From NCBI RefSeq assembly GCF_003627755.1, contig NZ_CP032696.1, positions 186,001 to 250,000 of the forward strand: a stretch of 64,000 nucleotides of DNA, in the 5' to 3' direction. The stretch comes from Rhizobium jaguaris (GTDB lineage Bacteria; Pseudomonadota; Alphaproteobacteria; Rhizobiales; Rhizobiaceae). The first letter of the stretch is position 1; the number at the start of each line of letters is the position of its first letter. The notes under the pieces were generated by a model. That model did no database searches, had not been told where the DNA came from, and was given only the letters and a program-made list of their open reading frames with translations. Shown in pieces: positions 38,265-55,814 of this stretch. The position numbers and the translations under genes were made by a program.

Positions 38265-38280
38265 TGCATCTACCGTGCCA
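38265..38280 (-). promoter_or_regulatory. Sigma-54 promoter of iscN-nifU-nifS-nifW
   Basis: On the minus strand TGGCAC-GGTAG-ATGCA, with GG and GC ten bases apart, 43 bases before the iscN ATG. An imperfect NifA site TGT-N10-ACG lies at 38378-38393 about 100 bases upstream. The perfect site at 38505-38520 is 225 bases away and sits better for nifQ, but could serve both directions. Confidence 0.8.
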
Positions 38281-38504
38281 AAGAGAAAAACCTTCGCAAA
38301 CAGTTGGATCTTTCTACCGATAATATGCAGGTGTCCGATATCGTTGAACCGCAAGCCTAAAAAACCGGGCAATCATCTGTGAACTCCAGGACGCCCGCCA
38401 AAGTATCCATGCGCCATCTTCCCGCCAGGGCCGTCATCGTCGCTGCGAGAACTCTCGTGGCAGTTCACCGCGAAAGGCTCGGCACCAAGGGCAACTGTCG
38501 AGTT

Positions 38505-38627
38505 TGTCGACTAGGCGACATCTGATGTCGAATCGAAATCCTTTGCGCACACTTATGAAGTGGTTGAAAAAACCACGGAAAGTTGTGCCCGACGCGGTTG
38601 TTTGGCCAGGCTGGCATAATTTTTGAA
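38505..38627 (+). promoter_or_regulatory. NifA-dependent promoter of nifQ
   Basis: A perfect NifA site TGT-CGACTAGGCG-ACA at 38505-38520 is followed about 90 bases later by the -24/-12 element TGGCAT-AATTT-TTGAA at 38612-38627. The -12 half has A in place of C but keeps the spacing. It points right, toward nifQ. Confidence 0.75.
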
Positions 38628-38691
38628 ACTCTCTCGTGGCGGCCGCCTACAGCAGCCGGCCCTGATCAATGAGCGAAGGAATGAACGCGCC

Positions 38692-39357
38692 ATGTCAGAT
38701 CTGCATCAGATCCAGGTTTTAAAGGGAAATGACATCAATCGCGGAATACGGATGTCCTATCAGCCCAGTCGGCAGCAATACTCACGGTCACCCAATGTCG
38801 GGCGGTGGCTGCGAATGGACATCGAGATGGATTTTGACGAATATGTGCTTACCTGTGTCTTTTCGCAGGCGCTTGAGGAGATCGAAGCCGGCCAGGTGTC
38901 GGCGACCGAGGCAACCGGCCTTTCTCCTACCGAGCTGCGGGACATCCTGGGGCGGAATTTCCCCGCCGGACTGGTCGAGGCGTTCTCCTCTGAGGCGGCG
39001 AGCGATCCAGAGCTCGGTACGGAGGAAGAGCTTCTGCGCGGCCTGCTACTGGCGCATGCCCGGCCAAACGACCCGGCCAGCGCCCGCTTTGCCAAAATCA
39101 TTGCCCGACGCGCCCTGCGCGACGACCATCTTTGGCAGGACCTTGGCCTCCTTGACCGAGCCGACCTCGGCCGCTTGTTCGCTACGCATTTTCCGATGCT
39201 GGCGGCCGGAAACACGAACAACATGAGATGGAAGAAGTACCTCTACCGCAAGCTCTGCGAGGCTGAAGGCTTTTCGCTGTGCGCCTCTCCCAGTTGTCAG
39301 GAATGCAGCGAGATCGAAGCGTGCTTCGGCCCCGAGAAAGGCGAAAGCCGTTGTTGA
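38692..39357 (+). CDS. nifQ: NifQ, molybdenum donor for FeMo-co
   Basis: NifQ-family protein (221 residues from this start) with the diagnostic C-terminal C-X4-C-X2-C-X5-C cluster CASPSCQECSEIEACF and, before it, NNMRWKKYLYRKLCEAEGF. It carries an FeS-Mo cluster and passes molybdenum to the NifEN/NifH machinery. The start is uncertain: ATG 38692 has AAGGA eleven bases upstream, and an internal ATG at about residue 24 is possible. Transcribed from its own NifA/sigma-54 promoter, convergent with rpoN. Confidence 0.93.
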   Translation: MSDLHQIQVLKGNDINRGIRMSYQPSRQQYSRSPNVGRWLRMDIEMDFDEYVLTCVFSQALEEIEAGQVSATEATGLSPTELRDILGRNFPAGLVEAFSSEAASDPELGTEEELLRGLLLAHARPNDPASARFAKIIARRALRDDHLWQDLGLLDRADLGRLFATHFPMLAAGNTNNMRWKKYLYRKLCEAEGFSLCASPSCQECSEIEACFGPEKGESRC

Positions 39358-39403
39358 GTCGCTTTCGCCAGCGGTGGGGGACCATCAGGCCTGATCGTCA
39401 TCA

Positions 39404-40843
39404 TTACAAGCCTGCACGCATCTCGCGGCGACGTTGCACGGAGGAGGGGATGTTCATTACTTCGCGATATTTTGCGACGGTACGTCGCGCAATATCGATT
39501 CCGCTTGCCCTAAGTTGGGCGACCATGCTGTCATCGGAAAGCACATTGTCTTCCGTTTCCGCGGCGATCATCGCCTTGATGCGATGGCGGATAGCTTCGG
39601 CTGAGTGTGCCTCGCCGCCTTCGGAGGAGGCAATCGCGACCGTGAAAAAATACTTCAGTTCGAACACGCCCCTTGGCGTGAGAATGTATTTATTCGAAGT
39701 CACTCGGCTTACGGTCGACTCATGCATCTCGATCGCGTCAGCGACAGTCTTGAGATTGAGCGGCCGAAGATGGGCGATGCCGTGTTCCAGAAAGACATCC
39801 TGCTGACGGACGATTTCGGTCGCTACCTTAAGGATCGTCTTGGCGCGCTGATCGAGACTGCGAACCAACCAGTTCGCGTTTTGGAAGCATTCATTGAGGA
39901 ATGCCTGATCTTGCGGATCATGCGCGGTCAGACGAGAGACTTCGGCAAAATAGGTTTGATTGATGAGCACTTTGGGCAGCATGTCGGGATTGAGCTCGAT
40001 TTGCCACCCGCCTCCGGTGGAAGGCATGACCCGAACGTCGGGGATGATGGCTTCCGGTCTTCCGGACTGGAAGCGATTTCCAGGCCTGGGATCCAGTGTT
40101 CGGATTTCATGCAACATGTCGAGAAGGTCTTCTTCGTCGACGCCGCAGCGCCGTTTCAATGCGCGAAAGTCGCGTTGCGCGACCAGCTCAAGATTGGCAA
40201 CCAGCGCTTCCATAGCGGGGTCGAACCGATCTCGCTGGCGCAACTGTATCTCGAGGCATTCGCTAAGAGTTCGTGCAAAAATTCCAGGTGGATCGAAAAG
40301 CTGCAAGGTTGCGAGAACCCGTTCGAGCTCATCTTCGCGGGCATCGAGACTCGCCGCCAGCTCCGAAAGGTTCACCTGAAGATATCCGGTGTCTTCCAGA
40401 TGATTGGCGAGCGCGCCGGCAATCAGCCGATCTCTTGAGGTAAATGCAGTCAAGGCGATCTGCCGAGCGACATCGTCGTGCAATGTTTCGGTCGAGGCAG
40501 CAAACTCCTCGAAGGCCGGGCGCTGCTCTGACGAAGCATTGGCAGTATTTCGAATTGATTTCCATTCCCCGAGCGGCTCGGGGGCGTCGGCACGTGTCGG
40601 CGCATCAACCTTGCTGTCGTGTGCGCCGATGTCCGGGCCGCTTTCCGAGGTCGACACGACATCGTCAGAAGCCATGCCGTCGCTTGATGCCAGCTCCAGA
40701 AAGGGGTTTTTCTCTAATTCCTGCTCGACGAACTGACGCAGTTCGCCGTGCGCCAGTTGCAGCAAGCGAATGGATTGGATGAGCTGGGGCGTGATAACCA
40801 GCGATTGCCTTTGGCGCTGGAGAAGGTTTGCTAAATACTGCAT
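39404..40843 (-). CDS. rpoN: RpoN2, RNA polymerase sigma-54 factor
   Basis: A 479-residue sigma-54: N-terminal glutamine-rich region I (SLVITPQLIQSIRLLQLAHG) that meets the activator, an acidic region II, the core-binding domain, and the C-terminal DNA-binding part with MHESTVSRVTSNKYILTPRG and the RpoN box ARRTVAKYRE. It is probably the symbiotic second copy, as in R. etli where rpoN2 follows prxS. The gap to prxS is 70 bases with the same orientation. Confidence 0.95.
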   Translation of the reverse strand: MQYLANLLQRQRQSLVITPQLIQSIRLLQLAHGELRQFVEQELEKNPFLELASSDGMASDDVVSTSESGPDIGAHDSKVDAPTRADAPEPLGEWKSIRNTANASSEQRPAFEEFAASTETLHDDVARQIALTAFTSRDRLIAGALANHLEDTGYLQVNLSELAASLDAREDELERVLATLQLFDPPGIFARTLSECLEIQLRQRDRFDPAMEALVANLELVAQRDFRALKRRCGVDEEDLLDMLHEIRTLDPRPGNRFQSGRPEAIIPDVRVMPSTGGGWQIELNPDMLPKVLINQTYFAEVSRLTAHDPQDQAFLNECFQNANWLVRSLDQRAKTILKVATEIVRQQDVFLEHGIAHLRPLNLKTVADAIEMHESTVSRVTSNKYILTPRGVFELKYFFTVAIASSEGGEAHSAEAIRHRIKAMIAAETEDNVLSDDSMVAQLRASGIDIARRTVAKYREVMNIPSSVQRRREMRAGL

Positions 40844-40913
40844 CCTAAGAGGGAAGCTCCCATCGATCTTTGTACTTAGTCGCGCGATTTATGAGACCTT
40901 GATTCCTGTGGGA

Positions 40914-41453
40914 TCACGCTGCGGCCGAGGCCTTGAGCGTTTTCAGTACGTTTTGGGGCGACGAAATGCCGTAGGGATCGGTTTGGCAGTCGTCCGAGAA
41001 GCCTTCTTCCTCGAACCATTGCTCCACATCGCCGTTATCGATCACCGCGGCGTAGCGCCAGGAACGCATTCCGAAACCGAGATTGTGCTTGGCGACGAGC
41101 ATGCCCATCTTACGGGTGAATTCGCCCGAGCCGTCAGGGATGAGCTTGACGTTCTGAACCCCTACGGACTTGCCCCAAGCGTTCATGACGAATGCATCGT
41201 TTACGGAGAGACAGTAAATCTCATCGATGCCCTGCTTCCGGAACTCCCCATGAAGGCTCTCGAACTCCGGTAGCTGCTGGTTGGTGCAGGTGGGGGTGAA
41301 GGCGCCTGGCAACGAAAACAAGACGACGCGCTTGCCACTGAAATAGTCGTCGGATGTGTTGTCTTTCCAATAATACGGATTTGGCCCCGGCAGGGAAGCG
41401 TCGCGAACACGCGTGCGGAACGTGACGAAGGGAACAGTCTTCTTCATGGTCAT
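40914..41453 (-). CDS. prxS: PrxS-type atypical 2-Cys peroxiredoxin
   Basis: A 179-residue peroxiredoxin of the Prx5-like group: the peroxidatic motif PGAFTPTCTNQQLPEFE, then CLSVNDAFVMNAWG and DGSGEFTRKMGM. It removes peroxides in the microaerobic bacteroid. In R. etli prxS is cotranscribed with rpoN2 and NifA-dependent; the homologue on pNGR234a is y4vD. ATG 41453 has GGAG eight bases upstream. A -24/-12 element lies 85 bases upstream. Confidence 0.92.
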   Translation of the reverse strand: MTMKKTVPFVTFRTRVRDASLPGPNPYYWKDNTSDDYFSGKRVVLFSLPGAFTPTCTNQQLPEFESLHGEFRKQGIDEIYCLSVNDAFVMNAWGKSVGVQNVKLIPDGSGEFTRKMGMLVAKHNLGFGMRSWRYAAVIDNGDVEQWFEEEGFSDDCQTDPYGISSPQNVLKTLKASAAA

Positions 41454-41537
41454 TCATATTGCTCCTTCACAAGAAAAGCTGACGCATTGTTTCGCGTTTG
41501 CGGCCGCCGTATCCGATTTTGGCATGCATGCTGGTCA

Positions 41538-41553
41538 GGCAAGCGCCATGCCA
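41538..41553 (-). promoter_or_regulatory. Sigma-54 promoter of prxS-rpoN2
   Basis: On the minus strand TGGCAT-GGCGC-TTGCC, with correct spacing, 85 bases before the prxS ATG. I do not see a perfect TGT-N10-ACA in the next 150 bases. Confidence 0.6.
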
Positions 41554-42162
41554 TTTGCCTCCAAGGCAGAGAATCACGCTGCTTTCGCACTGAGCTTTGG
41601 CTTGAGGATGAGGACGGGACGCGCAGCGAGCAAAGGCGCTGAACCAAATATCTCGGCCTTAAATAACGCCCGCCGCGGTGACCTTGGTTGGTTGCTCGTT
41701 ACCAGACGCGTCCGATATTCAAAAAAGGCGGAAACGTTCCGGATAGTCTATCGGTCGTATCAACGCGCACCACCGACAGGGACCGCAGCGCCTGCCGTGC
41801 GTGCGCGTGTAGGCACGGCGATCTGCCGGACACCTTTTCTCGCAGCACCGACCGGCGCGGCGCTGTTGCGGCTCTCGACCATATTCAGATTAGGATCTGG
41901 ACCACCCTACAGTTCTTCGGCAAGCGACGCGTGTTCGATCGTGGTGAGATTCAAGTTCGGGCCGGATCATGGTGATCGAATATTTCGGTCCTCCGCATGT
42001 GTCCATGCGCAAACCATTTTGTGTTCGAAGCGGGACAAGAATGTCGGAAGATCGACCTAGGGTCTCAGGCCCGGGCCGCAAGTCCTGCGGTGCGCCCATC
42101 CGGCAGTCAACTTGCTTTGACGGCTTTTCCGGCACACGGCACTGGCAGATTTCCGATGGAGC
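41554..42162. other. Intergenic stretch between prxS and the pepM relic
   Basis: About 610 bases. Long overlapping frames exist on both strands but none has family features or a good ribosome site; they are rich in Arg and Ser as expected for non-coding GC-rich DNA. Nothing supported. Confidence 0.5.
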
Positions 42163-42733
42163 ATGACCATGGATCAAACTGTTTTCGTTCCCAAGAGCAT
42201 CGGGCGATTGAGGATCCGACGAGAACGCTTCGAGTATCTGATTTCCTCCCCGGGCCTGACGTATCTGATGGACGCGCATGATGGGCTTTCCTGTTGCGGT
42301 TGCCTGCAGGCGAGCTTCAAGGCCATTTGGGCGTCCGACCTGTCCATTTCGGAGACCCTCGGCTACCGCGAAGTCAATGAGACAAGTTGGACAAATCTGA
42401 TTGAGGTGGAGGAACGAATGACGGACGCCAGCGGACTGCTGATCCTAGCTGATGGTGACTCCGGCTTCGCGGAACATCAATAATGCGCAGTTGATGGCAG
42501 CAAAGCTCTTGCAACATGGAGCCTCTGGTGTGGGTATTGACGATAAGGGCTTCCCGAAAATGAATTCCTCTGTCGGCGATCGTCATTCGCTGGACGATAT
42601 CGAGAAGTTCTCCGGCCGCCTGAAGGCGATTAAGAACATCACAGAAAGCGACCTTGTGCTTGTCGCCAGCGCCGGGGCGTTGATCGCCGATTACGGGCTC
42701 GAGACGGCTCTGTTGCGCGCCGAAAGCCTGTAA
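42163..42733 (+). pseudogene. Phosphoenolpyruvate mutase-like pseudogene (frameshifted and truncated)
   Basis: Frame 1 (42163-42483) reads LTYLMDAHDGLSCCGCLQAS and LGYREVNETSWTNLIEVEER, matching the intact PEP mutase at 54126-55037. After GDSGF a one-base indel near 42465 moves the match to another frame (NNAQLMAAKLLQHGASGVGI and later SSVGDRHSLDDIEKF), which stops at 42733, where the intact protein continues for another 115 residues. The active-site EDKLFPK is changed to DDKGFPK. An old paralogue rather than a recent duplicate, since identity is only moderate. Confidence 0.85.
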
Positions 42734-42906
42734 CGCGGCGACGCGGGTGACGCGCTGCTTCCCCGGTGCCAAATTGGCCTTGAACACTGGAAGAGGACGG
42801 TGGTTCGCCAGGAATCCGAAGAGAAAGTTCCGTGCAACCCCCCTGGTGTTCGAATGTTGGCATTGCTACAATCTCCCTCATACAGAATGGGTGACGCTGC
42901 ACTGAC

Positions 42907-43194
42907 GTGAAACCGCAAAACTCTCACACTCCGAGCCCAGCGAAGATTCGCCGCAGTGCGATCGAACTCGATCCGACAATGCGTCCATATCTCGCCGCTG
43001 CGATTGTTCGATTCACTGCGTTGCATGCAGGTATAGAAATCGAAGTATCTCAAACGGTCAGCCTGTTGGACGATGGCATAGCCCCGGTCGATCTGTTGGT
43101 CCAAGAGTTCCGCCACTGTCTGTATCGGGAGAAAATTTATGCCGAGACGCTTCCGCTCAGGCGTGCGCTGGTCGACGGTGTCCTCGGGCGATGA
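42907..43194 (+). CDS. hxsD: HxsD, His-Xaa-Ser system protein
   Basis: A 95-residue protein with no recognisable catalytic motif. Its size, its place just before hxsB, and a C-terminal region like VQEFRHCLYREKIYAETLPL then RRALVDGVLGR fit the small HxsD component of the His-Xaa-Ser system. Start is GTG 42907, with GGGTGA upstream; the ATG at residue 25 is an alternative. Its stop overlaps the hxsB start (ATGA). By size it may be a chaperone or peptide-recognition partner for the radical SAM enzymes, which is inference. Confidence 0.75.
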   Translation: MKPQNSHTPSPAKIRRSAIELDPTMRPYLAAAIVRFTALHAGIEIEVSQTVSLLDDGIAPVDLLVQEFRHCLYREKIYAETLPLRRALVDGVLGR

Positions 43195-44597
43195 CCGTAT
43201 TCCCCCTTAAGTTCAAACCGTTCGGCTCCGGCTATTTCTTTGCCGATGACGCGGGCGGCTACTTCAAAGCTGACGCCCAGTTTCTCGATCGCTATGCGAC
43301 CGGAAGGCTGACGGCAATGGATAAGGGTTTTCTTGAAGCGAATGGTCATGGGTTCAATGAGATCGACGACCCGGCCTATTTGGGATTTGCTTATCGATGG
43401 GCTCGACGATTACATCGTCCTCACGAGCTGAATTATGTCATTCTCGTTCCGACCCTACGTTGCAACTTGGCATGTGCGTATTGCCAGGTGTCTCGCGTGA
43501 ACGAGAGCACTCCGGGCTTTGATTGGACGGATGAGACGCTTGGACGCGTTATCCGATTTCTCGATGGCATGGATTCCGCGAGCGCCAAAATCGAATTCCA
43601 GGGTGGCGAGCCGCTGCTGCGGTTGGACTTATTGGAAAAGGTTCGAGATTTCGCTCGTCGCAAGTTCCAAGAAGTTTCCTTCACGGTATGCACCAATTTG
43701 CAATCCGTGTCGGAAGAAGCTTGGGATTTTCTGGACGCCCCGGACGTCTTCGTAAGCACGTCGCTCGACGGCAACCTCTCGACGCATGAGCGGCAACGAA
43801 CCGCAAATTCCAACGACACGCAGCAATTTGTATCGAACCTCAGCTATGCCATCGAGCGCTTGGGCCAGGGAAAGGTCTCGGCGCTCCCGACGCTAGACAT
43901 CAACAAGTTGCCGGTTGCTTCCGAGATAATCGATACGTTCGGTCGATTCGGTTTTCGCTCCATTTTCCTTCGACCCGTAAATCACCAAGGCTTTGCTCGA
44001 AAACGATTTCAGACCTCCGGTCTCGAAGACAAATGGAATGCCTACCATGCCGATTTTATCGACGCGCTGATCGAGCACAATTGGACCGCCGCTCAGCCGG
44101 TCGAAGAGTTCTACTTCACTCACTGCTTGCGCCGTGTTCTGCGTGGTGGCCACAACCAGCACGTTGACCTACGCAATCCGAATATTCTCGGCCGAGACTA
44201 CATCGTTATCGACTACGACGGTACTTTCTATCCGACGGATGAAGCCAGGATGGTCACGAGGATAGGACAGATCGATCTCAGCGTCGGCAATCTTTGGGAT
44301 GGCATCGATCAGCCCAAATTAGATATGCTGAACGAAGAATCCTCCAATTCATTCCATCCCGATTGCCTTCACTGTCCGTACCAAGCCGCCTGCGGTGTGG
44401 ACGTTGTTGACGACCTGTCCCGTTACGGGCGCATCGATTTGCCGAAACGCGACACAGCTTTCTGTCGCCGTCACACTGCAATCTTCGACAAGATTTTCGA
44501 GCTGCTCTATTCGGATGACAAGAAAGTCCAAAAGAGCCTCGCGGTTTGGGCTGGAATTCCGCAGTTCGATCCGTCACTGGCTCCGGTACACACATGA
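43191..44597 (+). CDS. hxsB: HxsB, radical SAM maturase of the His-Xaa-Ser system
   Basis: A 468-residue radical SAM protein. The cluster motif is CNLACAYC (Cys91, 95, 98), followed by the SAM motif EFQGGEPLLR, and a C-terminal SPASM-like cysteine region (CLHCPYQAACG, then a later AFCRRH) for auxiliary FeS clusters, as in peptide-modifying radical SAM enzymes. It is coupled by ATGA overlaps to hxsD upstream and hxsC downstream. In this family two radical SAM proteins, HxsB and HxsC, are thought to modify the repeat protein HxsA. Confidence 0.88.
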   Translation: MTVFPLKFKPFGSGYFFADDAGGYFKADAQFLDRYATGRLTAMDKGFLEANGHGFNEIDDPAYLGFAYRWARRLHRPHELNYVILVPTLRCNLACAYCQVSRVNESTPGFDWTDETLGRVIRFLDGMDSASAKIEFQGGEPLLRLDLLEKVRDFARRKFQEVSFTVCTNLQSVSEEAWDFLDAPDVFVSTSLDGNLSTHERQRTANSNDTQQFVSNLSYAIERLGQGKVSALPTLDINKLPVASEIIDTFGRFGFRSIFLRPVNHQGFARKRFQTSGLEDKWNAYHADFIDALIEHNWTAAQPVEEFYFTHCLRRVLRGGHNQHVDLRNPNILGRDYIVIDYDGTFYPTDEARMVTRIGQIDLSVGNLWDGIDQPKLDMLNEESSNSFHPDCLHCPYQAACGVDVVDDLSRYGRIDLPKRDTAFCRRHTAIFDKIFELLYSDDKKVQKSLAVWAGIPQFDPSLAPVHT

Positions 44598-45676
44598 TCG
44601 ATTTGCGGCTCAAGATCGATGACGTTCCAATCGATCATCCAAGCATCGTACGCTTGCGCACGGACGCGGTGGATAGTGAGCATGATGCCCTCCTGATCGA
44701 CAGGGATCAGGAAAGTCAAACCTTCGATCTCGCAGGCTACTCGCTTCGCGTCCACTGCGGTCCCGAAACCGATCTTGACGGTGACGTTCTGCTTCTAGTT
44801 CCTGGGCGAACGTCAGCGCATCGATTGGTGCGATCACGGTCGAGGCACAACACCTTCCTGGTCACCGAGCAATGTGACCAGCTCTGCGTCATGTGCTCGC
44901 AGCCTCCAAAGAAATATCACGCCGACCTCTTTGACCAGTTCACGGTTGCTGCCACCTTAGCCCCGGAAAGCGCCCGGATCACGATATCTGGCGGCGAGCC
45001 ACTCTTACACAAACGAAGACTGTTTCAATTTCTCGTCGCCGCAGCGAATGCCCGGCCGGATATCTCATTTCATGTTCTGACCAACGGCCAGTTTTTTGAA
45101 CCAGACGACGGCGCGATGATAGATGAGATTGGACGAGATCGCGTGCTGTGGGGCATTCCGCTGTACGCCCCTTACGCCGAACTTCACGACAGCATTGTTG
45201 GAAAGTCCGGCGCCTTCGAAAGGCTTTCGCTAAGCTTCGCGACGCTGATGAGGGTGGGGGCGGCGGTCGAACTTCGCACAGTTGTCCTTCAGCAGAACTG
45301 GGCCGCGTTGCCTGAGCTTGCGAACTATGTCTCGACCAGGCTGCCGTTCATCGATGTTTGGGCAATCATGCAGCTGGAGAATATCGGTTACGCCAGAATG
45401 AACTGGGCCCATTCGTTCAAGGATACGTCGCTGGACTTCGGCCAACTGCGCAGTGCCATCAATCTTGCGATTGGACGCGGTATCCAAACTCTTCTTTATA
45501 ATTTCCCTCTTTGCACGGTTCCTTCCCTGTACCGGCACCTGGCACCAGGCACGATTTCAGACTGGAAGAACAAATTCCTGGATGGATGCGGCGATTGTGC
45601 GCTTCGCTCTACTTGTGGTGGATTTTTTGAATGGTATAAAGCCGATCAGGGGTTTGGGGGACTCTTACCACAATGA
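44594..45676 (+). CDS. hxsC: HxsC, second radical SAM protein of the His-Xaa-Ser system
   Basis: A 360-residue radical SAM protein with cluster motif CDQLCVMC (Cys94, 98, 101), SAM motif ISGGEPLLHK, and the C-terminal CGDCALRSTCGGFF. ATG 44594 is chosen because it overlaps the hxsB stop as ATGA and gives the HxsC N-terminus (MIDLRLKIDDVPID); the frame is open further upstream inside hxsB. It overlaps hxsA by four bases. The pairing of two different radical SAM enzymes with a repeat peptide is the hallmark of the system. Confidence 0.88.
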   Translation: MIDLRLKIDDVPIDHPSIVRLRTDAVDSEHDALLIDRDQESQTFDLAGYSLRVHCGPETDLDGDVLLLVPGRTSAHRLVRSRSRHNTFLVTEQCDQLCVMCSQPPKKYHADLFDQFTVAATLAPESARITISGGEPLLHKRRLFQFLVAAANARPDISFHVLTNGQFFEPDDGAMIDEIGRDRVLWGIPLYAPYAELHDSIVGKSGAFERLSLSFATLMRVGAAVELRTVVLQQNWAALPELANYVSTRLPFIDVWAIMQLENIGYARMNWAHSFKDTSLDFGQLRSAINLAIGRGIQTLLYNFPLCTVPSLYRHLAPGTISDWKNKFLDGCGDCALRSTCGGFFEWYKADQGFGGLLPQ

Positions 45677-46296
45677 AGAAGCGCAAGATCTACCTGGTGC
45701 CGTCGTTGATCGCGGCGGGTTTCATGCCATCGAAAAGTGATGCGGCGCCAATCACCGGCCTTACCGAAAAGAAGCCGGCAACCACCCTGTTCGAACGGCT
45801 GCGGGTCAAGCAGGTCTACACCCTTGCGGGCCATAGCTCGCATTCGAGCCACGCAAGTCATGCCAGTCACGCTAGCCACGCATCTTCAGCTGGAGGCGGC
45901 TACATCCCACGGGGCGACTATGACACCGCTTATCCATCGCCCGACCCGACACCGCGCTATTCGCCCAACCCAGGGCCGGTCATCAGAAGTCTCCCGACCA
46001 TTCCCAATACACCGGCGACGACTTCAACTGGCACCTATTCGACGCAGTCCTCCTCGACGAGCGCGCAGCCAGTGCCGCTGAAGACGCTGCCAGGCAACTC
46101 GGACAAATTTCGCCGTATCGTCATACAGGTCCAGACGGCGCTGATTGCCTTTGGTTATTTCGGCGGCCCGATAACAGGGCAGGTCGATGCCGCAACGAGG
46201 GGCGGACTTAGCAAAATGCAGGATGCCTATGGTCTCAAGGTGACCGGAACAATCACGCCTCAGGTCCTAACAGCTTTTGGAATTTCAACGAACTGA
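45673..46296 (+). CDS. hxsA: HxsA, His-Xaa-Ser repeat protein with peptidoglycan-binding domain
   Basis: A 207-residue protein and the presumed substrate of HxsB/HxsC. A basic start and hydrophobic stretch (IYLVPSLIAAGFM) followed by SDAAP look like an export signal. Residues 54-71 are six perfect His-Xaa-Ser triplets (HSS, HSS, then four HAS). A Pro/Thr/Ser-rich linker leads to a C-terminal peptidoglycan-binding-like domain at about 145-205 (QTALIAFGYFGGPITGQVDA). The product would be a modified, exported, wall-associated protein. The chemistry of the modification is not known to me. Confidence 0.88.
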   Translation: MKKRKIYLVPSLIAAGFMPSKSDAAPITGLTEKKPATTLFERLRVKQVYTLAGHSSHSSHASHASHASHASSAGGGYIPRGDYDTAYPSPDPTPRYSPNPGPVIRSLPTIPNTPATTSTGTYSTQSSSTSAQPVPLKTLPGNSDKFRRIVIQVQTALIAFGYFGGPITGQVDAATRGGLSKMQDAYGLKVTGTITPQVLTAFGISTN

Positions 46297-46320
46297 CCCG
46301 ATGGGATCGGGGAGGGAGTG

Positions 46321-47481
46321 ATGCGCTCGTCAATCTTCATTTCTGCCCTCATTTCATTGGCAACGCTGATCGCCAGCCCGGGTCAGGCCGCGGTCAGGTT
46401 TGCCCATGTGAAAGCAGCGAACAACGACATCTTGTTGATTCAAGGAACGTTCGAGCCCAGCGATCTTCCCGATAGGCTCGAAGCCGAAATAAAGAGCAGC
46501 GTTCCGAAATTCATCGCGTTCAATTCGCCCGGCGGTGATGCGGATGCCGCGATCGGATACGGCCGAGCAATACGTCGACTGAAGCTTTCGACATTGCAGG
46601 TCTCGGGTTCAAAATGCGAGGCCGCATGCTTGCTCGCTTTTGCAGGTGGGACGCAGCGCTTTGCGGAAGACGTCTCGGTGGTCGTTGATCGGGCACTTCT
46701 GTCGTCGGGCGCATCAGGCCAGCAAACCGGCACCGACAAGTACAAATCCTATTTCGCTGAGATGGGTCTCGATCCCACCTTCCTTACATTCGTCACCGGC
46801 CTTGCTGACGGCGACCGGCGGGTGCTGTCGCTCATCGATATGGCTGGCTTCGGTCTCGTGACCGGGCAGCCCACGCCTTATGTCGCGCCGACGGCGGAAG
46901 AGACGGCCGTATCGGACGAGGCTCCGTCGGCAACTTTGAACGAGGCAGCGCTACAGTTCTTTCAGGAAATGCAGCGAACCTGGTCCACGAACGAAGGAAT
47001 GTCGTTCCTTGCGAATAACTACGGGGATTCGGTTCTCTATTACGGATCCCAGCACTCGAAAGCGGATGTCCTGCAGGAGAAGCAGCAGTTCGCGATCCGC
47101 TGGCCCGTGCGCATCTATGCCGTCCGATCCGGTACGGCGCGCGCAGCATGTTTTGACGTCTGCACTATCTTCGCCGTGGTCGACTGGTACGCCTCCAGCC
47201 CTCTACGCAAAAAATCATCCTCGGGTGCGGTGAATGCGGTCATGACATGGGACCCCACGACCCACAAAATTCTGGCTGAGAACGGTAAGATTACGACCAA
47301 TGACAAATCAGTAGCTGGACCAGATCGGATTATTCGTCGGTGGCTGACCGACAGCTCTGCATGCTCGCTATCGTACTCACAGGAGGCCTGCAATTCACAA
47401 GCGCTGCTTCTTACACTACTGAGCAACAGCGGTTGGTGCCGCAAACTCGATGCGACTTGGGGACCGTGTACCCTTCAATAG
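46321..47481 (+). CDS. Periplasmic ClpP/SppA-fold protein, nucleophile apparently lost
   Basis: A 386-residue protein with a signal peptide (MRSSIFISALISLATLIASP, GQAA). The first 190 residues have the crotonase/ClpP-like periplasmic pattern: IAFNSPGGDADAAIGYGRAI and SKCEAACLLAFAGG. In the related family the second motif usually reads C-x-S-A-C with the serine as nucleophile; here it is CEAAC. The C-terminal half is cysteine-containing and unassigned. It begins 24 bases after hxsA with GGAGG five bases before the ATG, so it probably belongs to the hxs transcript. Its 3' end overlaps the convergent gene by 66 bases. Confidence 0.75.
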   Translation: MRSSIFISALISLATLIASPGQAAVRFAHVKAANNDILLIQGTFEPSDLPDRLEAEIKSSVPKFIAFNSPGGDADAAIGYGRAIRRLKLSTLQVSGSKCEAACLLAFAGGTQRFAEDVSVVVDRALLSSGASGQQTGTDKYKSYFAEMGLDPTFLTFVTGLADGDRRVLSLIDMAGFGLVTGQPTPYVAPTAEETAVSDEAPSATLNEAALQFFQEMQRTWSTNEGMSFLANNYGDSVLYYGSQHSKADVLQEKQQFAIRWPVRIYAVRSGTARAACFDVCTIFAVVDWYASSPLRKKSSSGAVNAVMTWDPTTHKILAENGKITTNDKSVAGPDRIIRRWLTDSSACSLSYSQEACNSQALLLTLLSNSGWCRKLDATWGPCTLQ

Positions 47482-49377
47482 GCTAACGGCCGCTCTCCCG
47501 GGCGCAGGCGTGAATGTATTTTGCACCTTGGGTGCGGCGGATTGAAGCGAGACCGGACGTTGACCGAGCAATTCCTTCGGCACCCATCCCACCGCTGACG
47601 CACCACCCGAGACATGAACCCATCCACTTTCCGTCTCAAGTAAGGCCAGCAAAGCGTTCTGCCCGACTGCGGCGACCGGGATGTAATTTGCGCCGGGCCC
47701 ATCCCTCAGCTGAAAGGATTGCTTAAGGTAGGCGAACTTCAGCTCGGCTGGGGCGATATAAGGCGTGCCGGGAGGCTCGGATGCAGCAGCTACCGGAGAC
47801 ACGTCGGGTGCGGTCGCCGCCGCCGCAAGCGTTTCGAAGGTAGCGGGATCGGGCGTTGGCTCCTGATCAGCTTGAATGAGATCAGGTGTCGAAGTTTTCT
47901 GGTTGCCTGTAGGTTCGGGAACCTCCACGTTCTGCGCCTGGCTGGGGTCTGCGAGCGGACTTGTAGCCGAGGCAGAGGCGGCGGACGGCAACAGCGTGGA
48001 CGGGGACTCTGAACCGGTGGTAGAACCGGCGGACATCAACTGCGTGGCCGATGACGACGCGACTTGCCCCGAACCGGTGGCGACAGCAGCTTGTGTTGTG
48101 ACGGGCCTGGTCGAGCGTCCCGCGTTTTGGAATGCGGCGATCGCTATAGGAAGTGCAAAGATGCCGCCAATGATGAACGCTATGGTAGGCACGGTGCTCT
48201 TTGGTCTCTGCTGGGCAGGTACAGGCGAACCTGATGCCTCAGCTGGTAACGATGGCGTTTCGGTGGATGGAATTGCTTTCGGTGTCAGCGAAGCCTCGGT
48301 CTTTGCCCTCGCCAGAGCTTGGCAACCTGCGACAAAGCGAGCAAGTTTTCCTACTTGTGAAAACTCCAGCACCTCATTGAGGCCGCTGTCGCTTTGCAGA
48401 TGAAGTGTCTCATAGAGACAAACATGCAGTTGTCGGTTGTTGCGAAAACGCCGATCAGGCCCGCCATTCTTATTCGGGTGCTGCCATGTACGGTCGACGA
48501 CCTTCGCGTCACGAGGGGGACGCCCATCTTCGATGAATCGCGACTCCTGCCAACGAACGCGGAGATGGGAATACGACACCGCCCCGAAGCGTGAATTGTG
48601 GGCGACCAAAATAACGTCGGGCATGAAATAGATGATCTGCTTGCCAACATGTATCGAGGGTGGCGTGATGTTGCTCTTGATGACCTTCGGCAGAGCGTAG
48701 GCGAGCTTTGCGGCGGTTCGCTTGACGAGGTAGGAGGCGCCTGCATTTCTTTTCCAGGTCGTCAGATCGCTGATCGCACCGCCAGCATCGATATGCCATT
48801 TCCCCGCGCAGGAGCTTAAGCCATCGAAAGCCGCGATCATCTCCCTGTAGGCTTGTTCGATCGGGCCATCGATGTCGTAAAAGAGTACTGCCGACCGACG
48901 GTAGGAGTCGAGCCACGACCCGATCGCCCAGGCGGCAAGGGCGGCGATCAGCACCCAAATCCCCACCGGTGGTGCTTTCATCAGCAGAAAAATACCGAGG
49001 AGTGCCGCGAGCAATCCAAAAAGAGCCGACAGCCGCCATTGATTGGCCTTCGCGTTGATTTCGTCCAGCAACTCGCCGAAGTTCTCGTTGCGCATCAATA
49101 AGACATCGCCGGACTCGATCTCGATCATGTTGACGCCAGGTTCTTCGAAAATGATCTGGGCCGGAAGTGGCTCGTTATTCGCCCGATGTCGACCTTTGCC
49201 AGCACTGCTAATTGACGCTCGATAATACAGCCCGCCTCGTCCGACATGGATATAGTGGCCTCGAGGTCCGGTACCGATCCGCAAGCCCTTTACGCCGACT
49301 GAGACGCCGACACCGCCTTTGGAAAAATTAAACCGGAATGGTCCCGCCTTTACCGACTTGCGAATGTAGAATGGCAC
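47416..49377 (-). CDS. DUF4236 membrane protein with C-terminal SH3 domain
   Basis: From the GTG at 49377 the 653-residue protein starts with the DUF4236 pattern (PFYIRKSVKAGPFRFNFSKG, then GVGVSVGVKGLRIGTGPRGH). Two hydrophobic helices follow at about 116-155, another at about 397-416, then a long Ser/Thr/Pro/Ala-rich linker and an SH3-type domain (RDGPGANYIPVAAVGQNALL, and GWVPKELLG). The topology suggests an anchored protein with an SH3 domain that touches the cell wall. Directly upstream of the GTG is a run of twelve G on the coding strand. An ATG further upstream (49527) would read through that run. Confidence 0.75.
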   Translation of the reverse strand: MPFYIRKSVKAGPFRFNFSKGGVGVSVGVKGLRIGTGPRGHYIHVGRGGLYYRASISSAGKGRHRANNEPLPAQIIFEEPGVNMIEIESGDVLLMRNENFGELLDEINAKANQWRLSALFGLLAALLGIFLLMKAPPVGIWVLIAALAAWAIGSWLDSYRRSAVLFYDIDGPIEQAYREMIAAFDGLSSCAGKWHIDAGGAISDLTTWKRNAGASYLVKRTAAKLAYALPKVIKSNITPPSIHVGKQIIYFMPDVILVAHNSRFGAVSYSHLRVRWQESRFIEDGRPPRDAKVVDRTWQHPNKNGGPDRRFRNNRQLHVCLYETLHLQSDSGLNEVLEFSQVGKLARFVAGCQALARAKTEASLTPKAIPSTETPSLPAEASGSPVPAQQRPKSTVPTIAFIIGGIFALPIAIAAFQNAGRSTRPVTTQAAVATGSGQVASSSATQLMSAGSTTGSESPSTLLPSAASASATSPLADPSQAQNVEVPEPTGNQKTSTPDLIQADQEPTPDPATFETLAAAATAPDVSPVAAASEPPGTPYIAPAELKFAYLKQSFQLRDGPGANYIPVAAVGQNALLALLETESGWVHVSGGASAVGWVPKELLGQRPVSLQSAAPKVQNTFTPAPGRAAVSLLKGTRSPSRIEFAAPTAVAQ

Positions 49378-49381
49378 CCGA

Positions 49382-49393
49382 CCCCCCCCCCCC
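49382..49393. repeat. Homopolymer tract, 12 C (12 G on the coding strand)
   Basis: Twelve C in a row, read as G on the strand of the DUF4236 gene, ending five bases before its GTG start. Such tracts slip during replication. Depending on the true start, changes in length would alter ribosome-site spacing or reading frame. Confidence 0.85.
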
Positions 49394-49569
49394 GTTTCCT
49401 TGCAACGGATGGATGCTACAGGAATTTTTCGCCGCAACGAATGGCTTTGCGACCGATTTCGATTCTCTGGCGGAGCGCTTCCTGCAGATCGGCCTAAAGC
49501 TTGGCGCCAAACACGTCGAGCGGCCAACCGCCCGCCTCGAAGGGAACGCCGACTTTCTTCCGGTCGAGG

Positions 49570-50456
49570 CTAGGGGGCTTTTTGAACGGACGGACCGCCG
49601 CCAAGCCCAAACCGCTCTTTCATCTCGTCGGTGCGAACCCAGGTCTCACCAGCGATCTTGACAACCAGCCCTTCGAATACGCGCTCGAATGCCTCCTTGG
49701 TGGCGTCCTCTGACAACGCTTCCGCCTGAGCGAGCGGAAGCAGTGGCCGCATATCGGTCAGCAGCCGCGGGTTCGCCAGCTTTGCGAACATTCGCTCTTC
49801 GGCCTGGGCGCGGGATATCGATTGACCTGCAAATTGAAGATAGCGGCTGAACAGCTGAACAACCAGACCAGCATCAAGCCCTTCGAACACATCGAGGGCA
49901 TGGGAGAGATCATAGAGATCACGACCCTTGTCGCGCTGCAGGAGAGCCCGAAGCTTTGTGGCGAGAATCTCCTCCCTGGAGAAGGTCGGAATCTCTGCCT
50001 CGCCGGCAAACCAGGGATTGTCTATCCGAAGCGGTAGAGCTTGTGGCGGATCGTAGGCTTCGATTTCGCGCGTGTTGATTTCGACCTTGAGGCGAATGGG
50101 CACGCCGCTTCCGTCTTCCGCCTCCACACGAAAGCGAAATTTTGGCGCGACCGGCTCTGATCGAATTGCGCCCTGCCAAGCCAAGGTTCCAGAACTTCCC
50201 GCAACCGATCCAGGATTGGTCCGATCGGGCCTGCGGTTGTTCGGACGAGATCTATGTCTTCCGAGTAGCGAAGAGGCTTCGGGAAATGCAGCTTGTTCAG
50301 CGCCGTGCCGCCGCGAAAACGCAGTTCGGCGGACAGGAGATCGTCATTGAAGATATCGATAAGCGCACGGCTGATGATGAGGTCCTGCTCAATCTGACGC
50401 TGATCCGCCCACGGGACGATGCTCCCCCACGCGACAATGTTCTGAGCGGGGATCAT
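49570..50456 (-). pseudogene. AbiEii-type nucleotidyltransferase toxin, frameshifted
   Basis: Frame 1 from ATG 50456 gives the N-terminal half with the AbiEii signature FRGGTALNKLHFPKPLRYSE and DIDLVR. Around 50110-50180 the match passes to another frame (VAPKFRFRVEAEDGSG, then LKVEINTREIEAYDPP, LATKLRALLQRDKGRDLYDL), which ends at 49570. Neither frame alone is a full toxin, so it is probably inactive unless the frameshift is a sequencing error. Its ATG overlaps the antitoxin stop. Confidence 0.85.
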
Positions 50457-51280
50457 TCGTCGACCTCCGGCGTGCGGCGCACGATCACATGCCAGCGGTC
50501 GTTGCGCTCCTGCGGCGCGGGCGTGAAATCCGGGTCGCGCGTTTCGTGCCGGTCAAGCTCCGTCCACGGCGCAGCACCGCGCGCCATCAGCGCCACGTGC
50601 ATCGGTTCAGCGCGATCCTTATGTCCTAGCCGCTCCAGGAGGTGACCGAGACGTTGAACCACAGGCCGCTCGGCCGCGTCGGACAGTGCGGCGAGCTGAG
50701 AAGGGTCGATCTTTTCGGCGAGGTCCATAAGGACTGTCGCGACATTATCGATCCCCCCTGCCGCCTGTGGGTAGCGCAGGAGGTCGAGCGCCGTGAGGGC
50801 GGGAGATGATATCTTCATTCTGCCAGTATCCGTTTTGCGGTCCTCGATGCCAGGCTCCACTGCTGCAATGTCTTTGCGGTAGTAGAAGACGATCAGATTG
50901 CGACCCGCCTTGATCTTCGGCATGCGTTTGGGCGTGACGATCTGGAATTCCATCACGGCCTGGTGCGTGGCGCCGTGAAGCTCTGCCGCCTTCAGCAAGC
51001 CGACATAGTAGGGCTGCTGTTCGTGGCGCATCAGGGCGTCGATATACCAGGATGGCGGTGGCGCGCCCCAGGATGCAAACTGCGGGGGCACCGCAACATA
51101 GAGTCCCTGCCTGGGCCTGATCAGTGCCTTGCGGCGTTGAAGGCGCTCGGCTGCATCGAGGAAGGCACCGCGTTTGACGCCTATCGCCTGTTCGGCCTGC
51201 TGGCGCGTAAAGACCACCTGCCCTGCGGAGAGCAGGCTTGCGATATGGGTTGAAAGCGCGGATCGTTGATCGTGTACCAT
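50453..51280 (-). CDS. AbiEi-type antitoxin
   Basis: A 275-residue protein of the type IV toxin-antitoxin AbiEi family: N-terminal winged helix (TRQQAEQAIGVKRGAFLDAA), RPRQGLYVAVPPQFASWGAP, SWYIDALMRHEQQPYYVGLL, and a domain with LDLLRYPQAAGGIDNVATVL. AbiEi acts as a transcriptional autorepressor and neutralises the AbiEii nucleotidyltransferase. First gene of the pair. Intact here while the toxin is frameshifted, the order of decay expected for a toxin-antitoxin module. Confidence 0.85.
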   Translation of the reverse strand: MVHDQRSALSTHIASLLSAGQVVFTRQQAEQAIGVKRGAFLDAAERLQRRKALIRPRQGLYVAVPPQFASWGAPPPSWYIDALMRHEQQPYYVGLLKAAELHGATHQAVMEFQIVTPKRMPKIKAGRNLIVFYYRKDIAAVEPGIEDRKTDTGRMKISSPALTALDLLRYPQAAGGIDNVATVLMDLAEKIDPSQLAALSDAAERPVVQRLGHLLERLGHKDRAEPMHVALMARGAAPWTELDRHETRDPDFTPAPQERNDRWHVIVRRTPEVDE

Positions 51281-51839
51281 GCGTCATTATCCGCTCTTAG
51301 CGCGGATTTTTCAACATGATTCAGACTCGCAAGACAAATTGTTTTCGCTTTTCCGCGCTAAATGCGGCTTTCCAAACACGATTGATGGGCGTCCTCGCGA
51401 CGGGCCGGCCTTTTGGCTACCTGACGGGATCGCGTTGCGATTAGCTCGTGGGTGGTTCGAAATATGGCTGACGAACCGTTGGCTACTGCGGCTATTTCTG
51501 TTCCGCCAGTTCGGCCAGAAGGTAGTTAATATAGCTCCATCTCAGGTTGCAATAGAGGTGCGCCTCTTTGAGAGTCGGAGAGACATCGGCCGCAAGTTGG
51601 ATGCCGTGGCGAACGCCGCCACCGCCAGGAGATGAAAGATATCCACAGCGAACATCCGGGCGTTCACTCTCCGTTCGACCTTAGCGCAAGATTCTGCACA
51701 GGTCTTGTTCCGGCCCCTACATGGGGAGCGCCTAGTGAAGGCGTGGCGTGAAGCCGAAAACTTCCAAACCGACGACACGCCTTCCGATTTGGATGTTTCA
51801 GAACCCGTTCGCGATCCCGACACCGGCCATGTGATCTCG
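51281..51839. other. Intergenic stretch before the ISL3 remnant
   Basis: About 560 bases downstream of the divergent antitoxin start. A frame at 51279-51635 has no recognisable family. The last part may be the eroded 5' portion of the transposase that follows, but I cannot align it. Confidence 0.4.
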
Positions 51840-52235
51840 TTTGTGGTGGCCGCAGCTTTGTGCATAAAACCGCGCGGCCTGCCAACAGGTCATCAGGCCA
51901 GAAAGCTCAATGCTTTGAAGCAGGGCTCTCGAGGGTTCGCTATCATGTGTGGCTTGGCCATGCGCTTCAACGGCATCTTGCGCAGCGGGCGCTCGCAAGC
52001 ACTGGATGAAGGGATAGACGATGCCGTAGACACCGAGTTCACGGCAATCATGCGTTTCGCCAGCGTTCTGCGCCGGGATACTGATGCCGTCAAAAATGCA
52101 ATCGAACTCCCTTGGAGCAACGGTCAAGCCGAAGGTCAGATCAACCGCCTCAAGATGCTGAAGCGAGCAATGTACGGGCGCGCCGGCCCAGAACTGATGA
52201 GGGCGAGAATGCTGCCACTGAACCACAGAAATTGA
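51840..52235 (+). mobile_element. ISL3-family transposase, C-terminal remnant
   Basis: The end of the open frame shows the ISL3 transposase C-terminus: GFAIMCGLAMRFNGILRSG, then IELPWSNGQAEGQINRLKML and KRAMYGRAGPELMRARML. The N-terminal zinc-finger and most of the catalytic domain are missing, so the element is dead. Terminal inverted repeats were not identified. Confidence 0.8.
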
Positions 52236-52315
52236 GGAAGAACCTCCCGTGATGACATTCGCCGGGACTCTGCTGTCTGAACACCCGATCCAAAGATAGT
52301 CGAATTACAGATCAG

Positions 52316-52543
52316 TCACCTAGGCAAGGCCAAGGCCATGCCCGCTCCGTCCGAATAGATCGCACCGAAGCGCTCCCAGCACCGACCAGTCAATGGCCTG
52401 CGCCAGGCGCACCGTTTGTGCTTCATGTTGATGATCTGGTCGAGCCGGGATCGGAACAGATCCTGTTCACCCGGTTCGCGCCGTTCGCCCATTCCTGGCT
52501 CTCCGATCCACCGGGGGTAAATCCAGTGAATCGCGCTTCGCAA
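52316..52543 (-). mobile_element. IS5-family transposase, N-terminal remnant
   Basis: On the minus strand GEQDLFRSRLDQIINMKHK is the N-terminus of an IS5-type transposase. After it the match continues in other frames (LAQAIDW, then RFGAIYSDG), so the fragment is both truncated and frameshifted. With the ISL3 remnant 80 bases away it shows this is an insertion hot spot. Confidence 0.65.
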
Positions 52544-52837
52544 GCGGGGGAAACCTCAAATTGATTCCGCAAGGAAACAGCCTGTTCGGAAGCCGTTTCC
52601 TGCAATTATAAGATCTGCTGATCCCTCGATTCCTATGTCAAATCAGCCGCTTCAAAGTTCTTCACAGCCGACTCGATAGGAACGCCGATTTCGGCCCGCT
52701 TTCTTTTCAGTTCGTCTGTGACAACTGCCATGGTCAACTGCTCCACGGGATCGTACCGATTCTATTCCTTCAGTGGGATGGAGTCTGGGGGTAGTGCTAC
52801 CTAATTCCGAAAAACTGCGCGACAACGTCAACAAAGA
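52544..52837. other. Intergenic stretch
   Basis: About 290 bases between IS remnants and the small ORF; no supported gene. Confidence 0.5.
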
Positions 52838-53062
52838 TCATTGTGACCGGCTGGAGCGCGCTTCGCTTTGAAGCTCGTCGGCTAGGTAAGTTTCTGGTAG
52901 CTTCAGCTCGTCTTGCCGGCCCAGCATATTATTTGGTTGCCTGAGGAACTGTTCCGTCCTTCTCAGAAGCTCACGAGAACTCACAACGGCGTCCTGTCCA
53001 AGCAAGAAGTCTTGTAGGTATTCTTCACCGACTATTGCGGCAAGCCTGACGAAATCCACCAT
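52838..53062 (-). CDS. Small hypothetical protein downstream of the phosphonate genes
   Basis: A 74-residue acidic protein (starts MVDFVRLAAIVGEEYLQDF) with no known family. It follows the cytidylyltransferase gene after 97 bases on the same strand and could be the last gene of that transcript. Its composition looks protein-like, but it may be spurious. Confidence 0.4.
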   Translation of the reverse strand: MVDFVRLAAIVGEEYLQDFLLGQDAVVSSRELLRRTEQFLRQPNNMLGRQDELKLPETYLADELQSEARSSRSQ

Positions 53063-53159
53063 GTTGGTGCTCCTGCGTCAGCGGGCATGTATGATCTCTC
53101 TGTCGTCAGAGCTGACGGGTTCCTAGAATCGCTACCGATATCTCGGAAATGGAGCGGCT

Positions 53160-53963
53160 TTAGGGATGCGTCGGCATCTGCGGACAAGATTGCGACCTTG
53201 ACGGAACTCCCAGGAACATTGCCTCAGCAATGCGTAGATCGTCCTCATTGTCGATCTCACACCACCTGACGTCATCACATATGGCAGCGGCGATCTGCAG
53301 ATCCTTGTTCCGTATCAGATCAGACAACAGCTCTTCAGTGTAGGACTTTACGGCGCCGCCGGCGATGAGGTCGTCGAGATAAGGGACGATCGTCTCGCGC
53401 AGATCGTTGCAAGAAAAGCGGATCAGATTCATCGTCTTGAATAGCGCCGGCGAGCCGTCGCTCAAATCGGCGCCCGTTTGTTTCATCCGCACCTCGGTGA
53501 TATAGCCGTTTTCGGCCAGGACGACAGCGGAGCCTTCCATCGACCAGCCGAAAGGTGCGACCGCAGCAACGTTTTCGGCTTCTCCCATTTCGATATAGCG
53601 GAGGGCATCCAACTCGAAAAAGACATCCCCTTCCAGGAGATAGATGTCCCCGGCCAGCAGTCTCTCGCGTGCCAACCAGAGAGAATACGCAGTGCCCGTC
53701 TTGTCGAAGACCGAGGACTCGACGTAGCTAATTTCAAGATTGCCGAAGCGATTGCCGCAGGAGCACTGGATCGCATCCATGCGGTAGCCAACGACGATGG
53801 TGACTTCCTGTACGCCTGCCGCTTCCAGGTTGCGAAGCGCATTGTGAATAATGGGCGTACCGTTGACTTTGACGAGTGGCTTCGGCGTCAGGTCTGTCAA
53901 GGGTCGCAGGCGAGATCCACGACCTGCGGCAAGTATGACTGCGTTCTTGGGAGCACTTTTCAT
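53160..53963 (-). CDS. Nucleotidyltransferase of the phosphonate (PntC-like) type
   Basis: A 267-residue NTP transferase: N-terminal VILAAGRGSRLRPLTDLTPK then PLVKVNGTPIIHNAL, LLEGDVFFE (metal-binding Asp) and a C-terminal WCEIDNEDDLRIAEA. The fold is that of sugar-phosphate or choline-phosphate cytidylyltransferases. Linked to pepM, it is most likely the CTP-dependent enzyme that activates a phosphonate for attachment to lipid or polysaccharide. The sequence alone does not fix the substrate. Confidence 0.75.
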   Translation of the reverse strand: MKSAPKNAVILAAGRGSRLRPLTDLTPKPLVKVNGTPIIHNALRNLEAAGVQEVTIVVGYRMDAIQCSCGNRFGNLEISYVESSVFDKTGTAYSLWLARERLLAGDIYLLEGDVFFELDALRYIEMGEAENVAAVAPFGWSMEGSAVVLAENGYITEVRMKQTGADLSDGSPALFKTMNLIRFSCNDLRETIVPYLDDLIAGGAVKSYTEELLSDLIRNKDLQIAAAICDDVRWCEIDNEDDLRIAEAMFLGVPSRSQSCPQMPTHP

Positions 53964-54002
53964 CGTCGTAGTTCCCTTCTGTCTGCTCGTACCATGATCT
54001 CG

Positions 54003-54124: not shown

Positions 54125-54125
54125 C

Positions 54126-55812: not shown

Positions 55813-55814
55813 TC

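Follow-up and report, generated by a model that had tools for sequence, protein, structure and literature searches.

A stretch of 64,000 nucleotides (nt) of the Rhizobium jaguaris contig NZ_CP032696.1 (the window; the 550,563-bp contig is one of four in an 8.03-Mb genome) carries hxsDBCA, an operon of the His-Xaa-Ser (HXS) system, and we conclude with high confidence that it is a genuine, selected and working HXS operon. It is already known in kind: HXS has been described as a radical S-adenosylmethionine (SAM) peptide system, the operon is annotated in relatives, and hxsBCA are already annotated in public Rhizobium plasmid records. What we add is a family of diverged HxsD-like proteins missed by the model TIGR03976, an exchangeable fifth gene, the absence from this lineage of a MauG-like arm, and a specific, falsifiable chemistry. 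The best explanation we can offer for the whole, which we hold tentatively and with a little less than even confidence, is that HxsB and HxsC cross-link the His-Xaa-Ser triplets of HxsA, that HxsA is exported and held at the wall with the product of gene 5 as a partner, and that the operon is a mobile trait.

The hxs operon and its products

The genes concerned are:

hxsD-like gene: 42907-43194, plus strand; 95 aa, GTG start
hxsB: 43191-44597, plus strand; 468 aa, radical SAM maturase (TIGR03978)
hxsC: 44594-45676, plus strand; 360 aa from its ATG, second radical SAM maturase (TIGR03977)
hxsA: 45673-46296, plus strand; 207 aa, predicted substrate (TIGR03979 and PF01471)
gene 5: 46318-47481, plus strand; secreted-looking, first part ClpP/crotonase-like, Ala at the putative nucleophile position
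DUF4236 and SH3-tail protein: 47416-49527, minus strand; convergent with gene 5, PF14020 at 2.3e-15 and a weak PF08239 at 0.0088, start about 60 residues further on in relatives

As a preliminary description of this DNA had it, the four hxs genes overlap by four bases (ATGA) at each of the three junctions, at 43191, 44594 and 45673. That description gave the start of the system correctly as 42907, but the end it gave, 47481, is the stop of the fifth gene, which it did not mention and which follows hxsA after a gap of 21 bp. The genome holds one full copy of HxsB and one HxsA match over the cut-off. In comparison with Rhizobium tropici CIAT 899, the ratio of nonsynonymous to synonymous substitution (dN/dS) is 0.07 for hxsA, 0.09 for hxsB, 0.11 for hxsC and 0.36 for hxsD, and by these ratios hxsA, hxsB and hxsC are under purifying selection.

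Both maturases exceed the NCBIfam cut-offs of their families (HxsB 448.7 bits for TIGR03978, cut-off 370; HxsC 326.9 bits for TIGR03977, cut-off 267.9). They carry the CX3CX2C motifs CNLACAYC and CDQLCVMC, each protein with extra C-terminal cysteines, so the pair of radical SAM proteins described earlier is as claimed. In a 13-row alignment of HxsB, cysteines 91, 95 and 98 and cysteines 392, 395, 401 and 425 are invariant. HxsA scores 222.9 bits for TIGR03979 (NCBIfam, cut-off 121.65) and is laid out as an N-terminal stretch resembling a signal peptide (judged by eye alone), six tandem HxS triplets HSSHSSHASHASHASHAS at residues 54-71, a linker, and a C-terminal peptidoglycan-binding domain, PG_binding_1 (PF01471, 8.3e-12). 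These features agree with the earlier description of HxsA as an exported protein with six triplets and a domain of this type, and with three family models over cut-off the operon stands as an HXS system whose substrate is predicted to be exported and to bind peptidoglycan. A search with all four models, TIGR03976 to TIGR03979, had been proposed as a check; it succeeded for HxsB, HxsC and HxsA, while the HxsD-like protein gave no match to TIGR03976. The window therefore shares with the HXS families HxsB, HxsC and HxsA over their cut-offs, in one operon behind a small upstream gene. It differs from them in an HxsD beyond the reach of TIGR03976 and in having gene 5 and the DUF4236/SH3 protein instead of a MauG-like/TIGR03982 pair beside the operon. 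The claim of a complete system thus holds for hxsBCA with its small upstream gene, but HxsD is diverged at best and the pair is missing.

We examined the repeat in the main cluster of HxsA, which has 66 distinct proteins drawn from 69 of the 88 loci examined, the counts being confined to that cluster. An unbroken tandem run of 4-7 HxS triplets is present in all 66. Over their 362 triplets the middle residue is Ser in 162, Arg in 125, Ala in 49, Gly in 21 and another residue in 5, variability that is expected if only positions i and i+2 react. AGY and TCN serine codons are mixed inside the run in 65 of the 66, and therefore the HxS pattern is kept at the level of amino acids. Across the 64 rows of an HxsA alignment the signal-like region has an invariant 'AG', and the residue just ahead of the first triplet is Ala in 64/64, a conservation that would appear to exceed the needs of a plain export signal.

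The first gene is the least certain of the four. At E<=1 its product gave no match with TIGR03976 or any other NCBIfam model, and no Pfam family was over cut-off. It belongs, however, to a group of 27 alphaproteobacterial proteins (its own included) encoded at the same position, in which R35, R74, K76, I77, E80, T81 and R85 are invariant. The miss by TIGR03976 need not be disqualifying, because this model misses 26 of the 27 and matches the remaining one at E 0.0015; a Pseudomonas HxsD also scores just below its cut-off (48.8 against 50). Comparison by hhalign of the 27-row family with six canonical HxsD proteins gave a probability of 64% and a P of 6.5e-5. By position, profile comparison and relatives the gene is likely to encode a diverged HxsD, so that the product of the small gene overlapping hxsB by 4 bp, which had been called HxsD, is a diverged homologue at best. 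An AlphaFold model (pLDDT 89.7) has the order beta-alpha-beta-beta-long alpha. We considered a PqqD-like recognition element for ribosomally synthesised and post-translationally modified peptides (RiPPs), but the model had no significant match among PDB structures (best E 0.29), which leaves that idea unsupported, not disproved.

A scan for sigma-70 promoters found 3 against 2.4 expected, none of them ahead of hxsD. An extended -10-like sequence, TGCTACAAT, at 42864-42872 was spotted by eye only, and in loci of the R. tropici type this stretch reads on in frame with hxsD. In such loci (L003 11930-12150, L037 and L038) the hxsD frame, followed by eye, continues upstream through a Cys-containing stretch, approximately CQHCYNLNHTEWGRCTD in L037; in the window the upstream frame is interrupted, so that hxsD starts at the GTG at 42907 (by eye).

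A proposed modification of HxsA

Under the explanation we favour, HxsA would start as a precursor with an N-terminal region that doubles as recognition sequence for the maturases and export signal. In the cytoplasm HxsB and HxsC would modify the tandem triplets via SAM radicals, with HxsD as a small helper that perhaps brings HxsB to HxsA. The most likely product would be a covalent i to i+2 bond in each triplet, from the His imidazole to the Ser beta carbon. Each such bond would close a three-residue ring and remove 2 Da, so that the repeat pattern, if this is true, gives a testable chemistry in a loss of up to 12 Da over six triplets. The cross-linked repeat would be a stiff, imidazole-rich rod, and the modified protein would then be exported and held to peptidoglycan through its C-terminal domain. 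Gene 5 with the SH3-tailed protein would serve as the periplasmic partner in this Rhizobium lineage, in the place that a MauG-like di-heme enzyme takes at other loci. The order of steps, the export and the wall binding are what we infer.

The suggestion of His-Ser rings comes from the period-three pattern together with precedents for i/i+2 joining. According to PMC11002830, there are radical SAM enzymes that form links between i and i+2, HaaB, ScaB and YhhB through His C2 and MscB through the Ser C-beta; PMC6537148 names the His-Xaa-Ser motif once. The three-residue cyclophane RiPP maturases treated in PMC11002830 (the triceptide enzymes HaaB, MscB and YhhB) share with the window a radical SAM enzyme beside its precursor, in which an aromatic residue (i) has its partner two positions further on (i+2). 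The aromatic-X-X motif of cyclophane precursors is present in HxsA as its six H-x-S triplets. The window differs from the triceptides in that the substrate is a peptidoglycan-binding protein with a tandem array and there are two maturases, which by score lie outside the known families. Elsewhere, a YhhAB cyclophane RiPP pair is annotated (L138 1888-4303, R. tumorigenes pRt1078), and an hxs locus that includes gene 5 and DUF4236 follows it after about 3.7 kb.

Several observations weigh against this explanation. The best non-self NCBIfam matches of HxsB are the ranthipeptide maturase PapB (95.8 bits), CcpM and sulfatase maturases, which are not cyclophane makers; its scores against the known cyclophane families are all under cut-off (YhhB 54.4 against 445, FxsB 42.1 against 370, AmcB 36.7 against 425), and that against DynA is 58.7 bits. 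The presence of two maturases suggests two modifications, which the ring model leaves unexplained. A radical SAM reaction on an export-bound protein is unusual, and the putative export signal of HxsA was recognised by eye. The HxsD-like protein fails its own family model, TIGR03976, and its structural model lacks a significant PDB match. The AlphaFold model of gene 5 is weak (pLDDT 60.8) and gives a fold hint only, and because most HXS loci seen are without gene 5, its partnership would be lineage-specific and maybe incidental. Finally, the literature searched yielded no report of a product for any HXS system, and for this reason the His-Ser bond itself is a guess by analogy.

Another way to view the enzymes is that HxsB and/or HxsC modify the serine alone, for example by oxidation as in sulfatase maturation or by epimerisation, with His acting in recognition or as a metal ligand and mature HxsA being a metal-binding wall protein. 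HxsB scores 66.7 bits against the anaerobic sulfatase maturase family, its profile matches the solved sulfatase maturases 4k36 and 4k37, and His-rich runs are often metal-binding. However, several other peptide-maturase families score equally well or better with HxsB, and a single-residue change leaves unexplained the strict H-x-S period with variable middle residue that all 66 main-cluster HxsA proteins keep. We regard modification of Ser alone as unlikely.

HXS loci in other bacteria and the MauG-like arm

We used the 13-row HxsB alignment for a profile search of genome contigs and examined the best 80 of 564 confirmed relatives. Model matches to HxsC were present in 78/80, to HxsA in 77/80 (some of them weak, at 20-63 bits in L111-L119) and to HxsD in 55/80, the HxsD misses being mainly in sphingomonads; in several, small open reading frames end beside hxsB. 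Downstream counts cover the 69 of the 80 loci whose sequence continues for 3.3 kb or more past hxsB and leave out the other 11. A protein of the 132-aa, TIGR03982-like type and a MauG-like di-heme protein lie as a pair, on the same strand, downstream of hxsB in 22 of the 69. In the one representative pair that was named by family model, from L070, the scores are 88.4 bits for TIGR03982 (cut-off 40) and 386.6 for TIGR03981 (cut-off 340), which NCBIfam calls 'His-Xaa-Ser system-associated MauG-like protein'. These 22 loci, with the MauG-like protein downstream of hxsA, thus recall di-heme maturation of the MauG/MbnH type (TIGR03981, TIGR04039). By contrast, nothing in the genome of the window reaches the TIGR03981 cut-off (the best score is 54.6 bits, 340 being required), and home-made models of the pair gave no match near hxsB in the window, TIGR03982 not having been searched genome-wide.

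A tree of HxsB was built from 88 rows (the window, 7 plasmid loci and the 80 loci), none of which was lost to the length limit. The 12 loci with gene 5 form one clade (100/100), in which the window stands beside the R. tropici type (100/98). Loci with the MauG-like pair are scattered over alphaproteobacterial, gammaproteobacterial and acidobacterial branches (the tree has a midpoint root and several long branches), a distribution that fits a MauG-like arm which may be old and have been lost several times.

The composition of HxsA also bears on this arm. For 19 of the 22 loci with the pair, an HxsA in the cluster could be used to count Trp: beside MauG-like enzymes there is no Trp after the repeats in 15/19 and one Trp in 4/19, and without the enzyme Trp occurs in 1/45. 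Formation of a Trp-derived quinone on HxsA by the MauG-like enzyme was rejected on this count, since with 15 of 19 such proteins lacking the residue a Trp-type reaction is unlikely to be general. The arm is thus optional, and the general lack of Trp after the repeats narrows its possible action. Separately, in Pseudomonas and a Methylophilaceae metagenome-assembled genome (L114 8170-8454, L115, L116 and L117) a short HxsA2-like protein without a peptidoglycan-binding domain precedes hxsD; the L114 protein scores 104.1 bits for NF038296 (cut-off 48).

Gene 5 and the mosaic structure of the locus

Gene 5 matched no family in NCBIfam, Pfam or PADLOC (best Pfam E 0.22). Foldseek matched its weak model to the stomatin protease 1510-N, ClpP-type proteins, enoyl-CoA hydratases and 3h51. 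The last is a domain of the CaMKII-association type, which may be read as NTF2-like and as matching the second part of gene 5. We placed the expected nucleophile in the motif C-x-S-A-C by reference to where ClpP-like proteins have their catalytic Ser. Read by eye, the residue there is Ser in 2/10 aligned rows (L004 and L064) and Ala in the window, and gene 5 is therefore probably not a protease; the model points to what is probably a non-catalytic ClpP-like binder. Gene 5 adjoins hxsA in 5 of the 69 loci, all from Rhizobium, a count that excludes a relative 6.4 kb upstream of hxs in the Mesorhizobium locus L064.

The closest described loci, on R. tropici CIAT 899 pRtrCIAT899b and R. etli CFN 42 p42a, are already annotated and have high DNA identity to the window. 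The window hxsDBCA is 88% identical in DNA to that of CIAT 899, a laboratory symbiont. Against the CIAT 899 counterparts hxsA is 95% and hxsB 91% identical, whereas the gene 5 protein is 43% identical to that of CIAT 899 and 85% identical to the p42a type; hxs, gene 5 and DUF4236 together have 80% DNA identity to p42a. Since gene 5 differs where hxsDBCA is nearly identical, the downstream part appears to have been exchanged at the border between hxsA and gene 5, so that the locus is a mosaic of CIAT 899-type hxsDBCA joined to p42a-type gene 5/DUF4236, with hxsB 2.3 kb from rpoN2. On a more distant R. tumorigenes plasmid gene 5 is 44-45% identical to both types and again has a DUF4236 neighbour.

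An SH3-tailed protein follows gene 5 in both arrangements, the tail of the DUF4236 protein being 43% identical over 110 aa to the CIAT 899 SH3 protein. At an Agrobacterium pAt locus hxsA is followed by a gene with no relation to gene 5, but an SH3 protein is again close. By eye, an SH3-tail protein lies near hxs in 11 of the 69 loci, all within the 17 rhizobial loci with enough sequence (L040-L057 and L110). A vWA/PP2C/kinase triad, presumably of the TerY type, together with an SH3 protein recurs beside hxs in either orientation in Rhizobium and kin (L049, L053, L057, L110 and CIAT 899-type loci). A bolder proposal, which we think improbable, is that HXS has been rewired on Rhizobium plasmids: maturases and HxsA would have been kept and the MauG-like arm lost, while a ClpP-like pseudo-protease (gene 5) and the SH3 wall protein would read or guard the cross-linked HxsA rod, gene 5 being a replaceable cassette, as would suit a wall-anchored module for recognition or competition.

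Genomic position and the question of symbiosis

A nif/rpoN2 block lies to the left of hxs, and nifH is on the same contig at 256460, about 6.5 kb past the right end of the window. The replicon carries nif and is related to plasmids with nod and nif. The preliminary description was thus right to place the operon between nif genes on a symbiotic plasmid; the role on or around the plant that it derived from this position finds no support in the comparison with other genomes. If hxs acted in symbiosis or at the plant surface and had been selected for its location among nif and nod genes, its presence on the nif replicon would be explained, as would its recurrence on related plasmids: rpoN2 is >87% identical on seven plasmid records, hxsB is on 6/7 of them, and 6/7 have annotated nod and nif (NXC24 not being among the rows listed). 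However, the position is not common to these plasmids, the six keeping hxsB about 95-159 kb from rpoN2. Moreover, an IS256 element interrupts hxsB of CCGE532, and neither the 13 DNA matches nor the 60/69 protein matches listed include CB3060, a plasmid with both nod and nif.

HxsB is over cut-off in 12/394 genomes of the window's family. Four of these 12 (the window's own included) have nifH over cut-off against 6 of 50 HxsB-negative genomes, hand-picked from 382; this weakly favours a link, the numbers being small. The two genes share a contig in 2/12 (G000 and G250), and 8/12 are without nifH over cut-off. HxsB (E<=1e-60) was found on 69 plasmid records: 29 from Rhizobium, 26 from Agrobacterium (many of them near-identical walnut isolates), 8 from Sinorhizobium and 6 from others. 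Many of the listed hosts come from plants or nodules, in keeping with a symbiosis factor, but the Agrobacterium share is not; 55 of the 69 records are predicted conjugative.

We also scanned the window for sites of symbiotic regulation, using what we take to be the NifA and sigma-54 consensus patterns. A NifA-like box (TGT-N10-ACA) at 42855-42870 would suit a symbiosis factor, but such boxes are near chance in the window (10 against 7.4 expected) and this one is just 36 bp away from hxsD. Of 11 sigma-54-like sites (at most one mismatch), the stretch from 38280 to 57735 contains none. R. tropici-type loci far from rpoN2 have the same sequence ahead of hxsD. Control of hxs by NifA/sigma-54 was rejected on the results of the two site scans. 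A symbiotic role of hxs is not supported, and we consider selection as a symbiosis factor very unlikely. The operon looks like a mobile plasmid-borne accessory trait outside the symbiotic machinery, which may bring a general benefit in plant-associated life. The comparison thus separates location on a symbiotic plasmid from being a symbiosis gene.

Positions 39001-42723 and 55726-59995 of the window are collinear with a plasmid of Rhizobium sp. CB3090, and between them CB3090 has 1.46 kb against about 13 kb in the window. Collinearity ends inside a gene of the phosphoenolpyruvate (PEP) mutase/isocitrate lyase family (42163-42733), which is in two frames in the window and annotated whole in CB3090. 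A full PEP mutase (TIGR02320, 340.0 bits, cut-off 319.55) beside a nucleotidyltransferase at 53160-55037, minus strand, looks like a phosphonate-making pair, and a remnant of an ISL3-family transposase (51705-52235) lies between it and hxs.

A possible role in conflict or defence

Patchy spread through the family, mostly on predicted conjugative plasmids, would also be expected of a conflict or defence module, in which modified HxsA and exchangeable periplasmic partners act between bacteria or against mobile elements. The greater divergence of gene 5 from its CIAT 899 counterpart than of hxsA and hxsB is in keeping with this, as are neighbours seen at single loci, which include caspase-like, TIR, E2-like, Shedu, HipA, Fic, vWA/PP2C/kinase and AbiE genes. 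These neighbours are not constant, however, and accessory regions of plasmids collect such genes anyway. A PADLOC scan of HxsB, HxsC, gene 5 and DUF4236 (not HxsA or HxsD) gave only weak generic radical SAM matches to pVip, for HxsB and HxsC. We judge a function in conflict to be rather improbable. In the window itself, AbiE genes lie at 49570-51280 on the minus strand, with AbiEi whole and AbiEii split over two overlapping frames.

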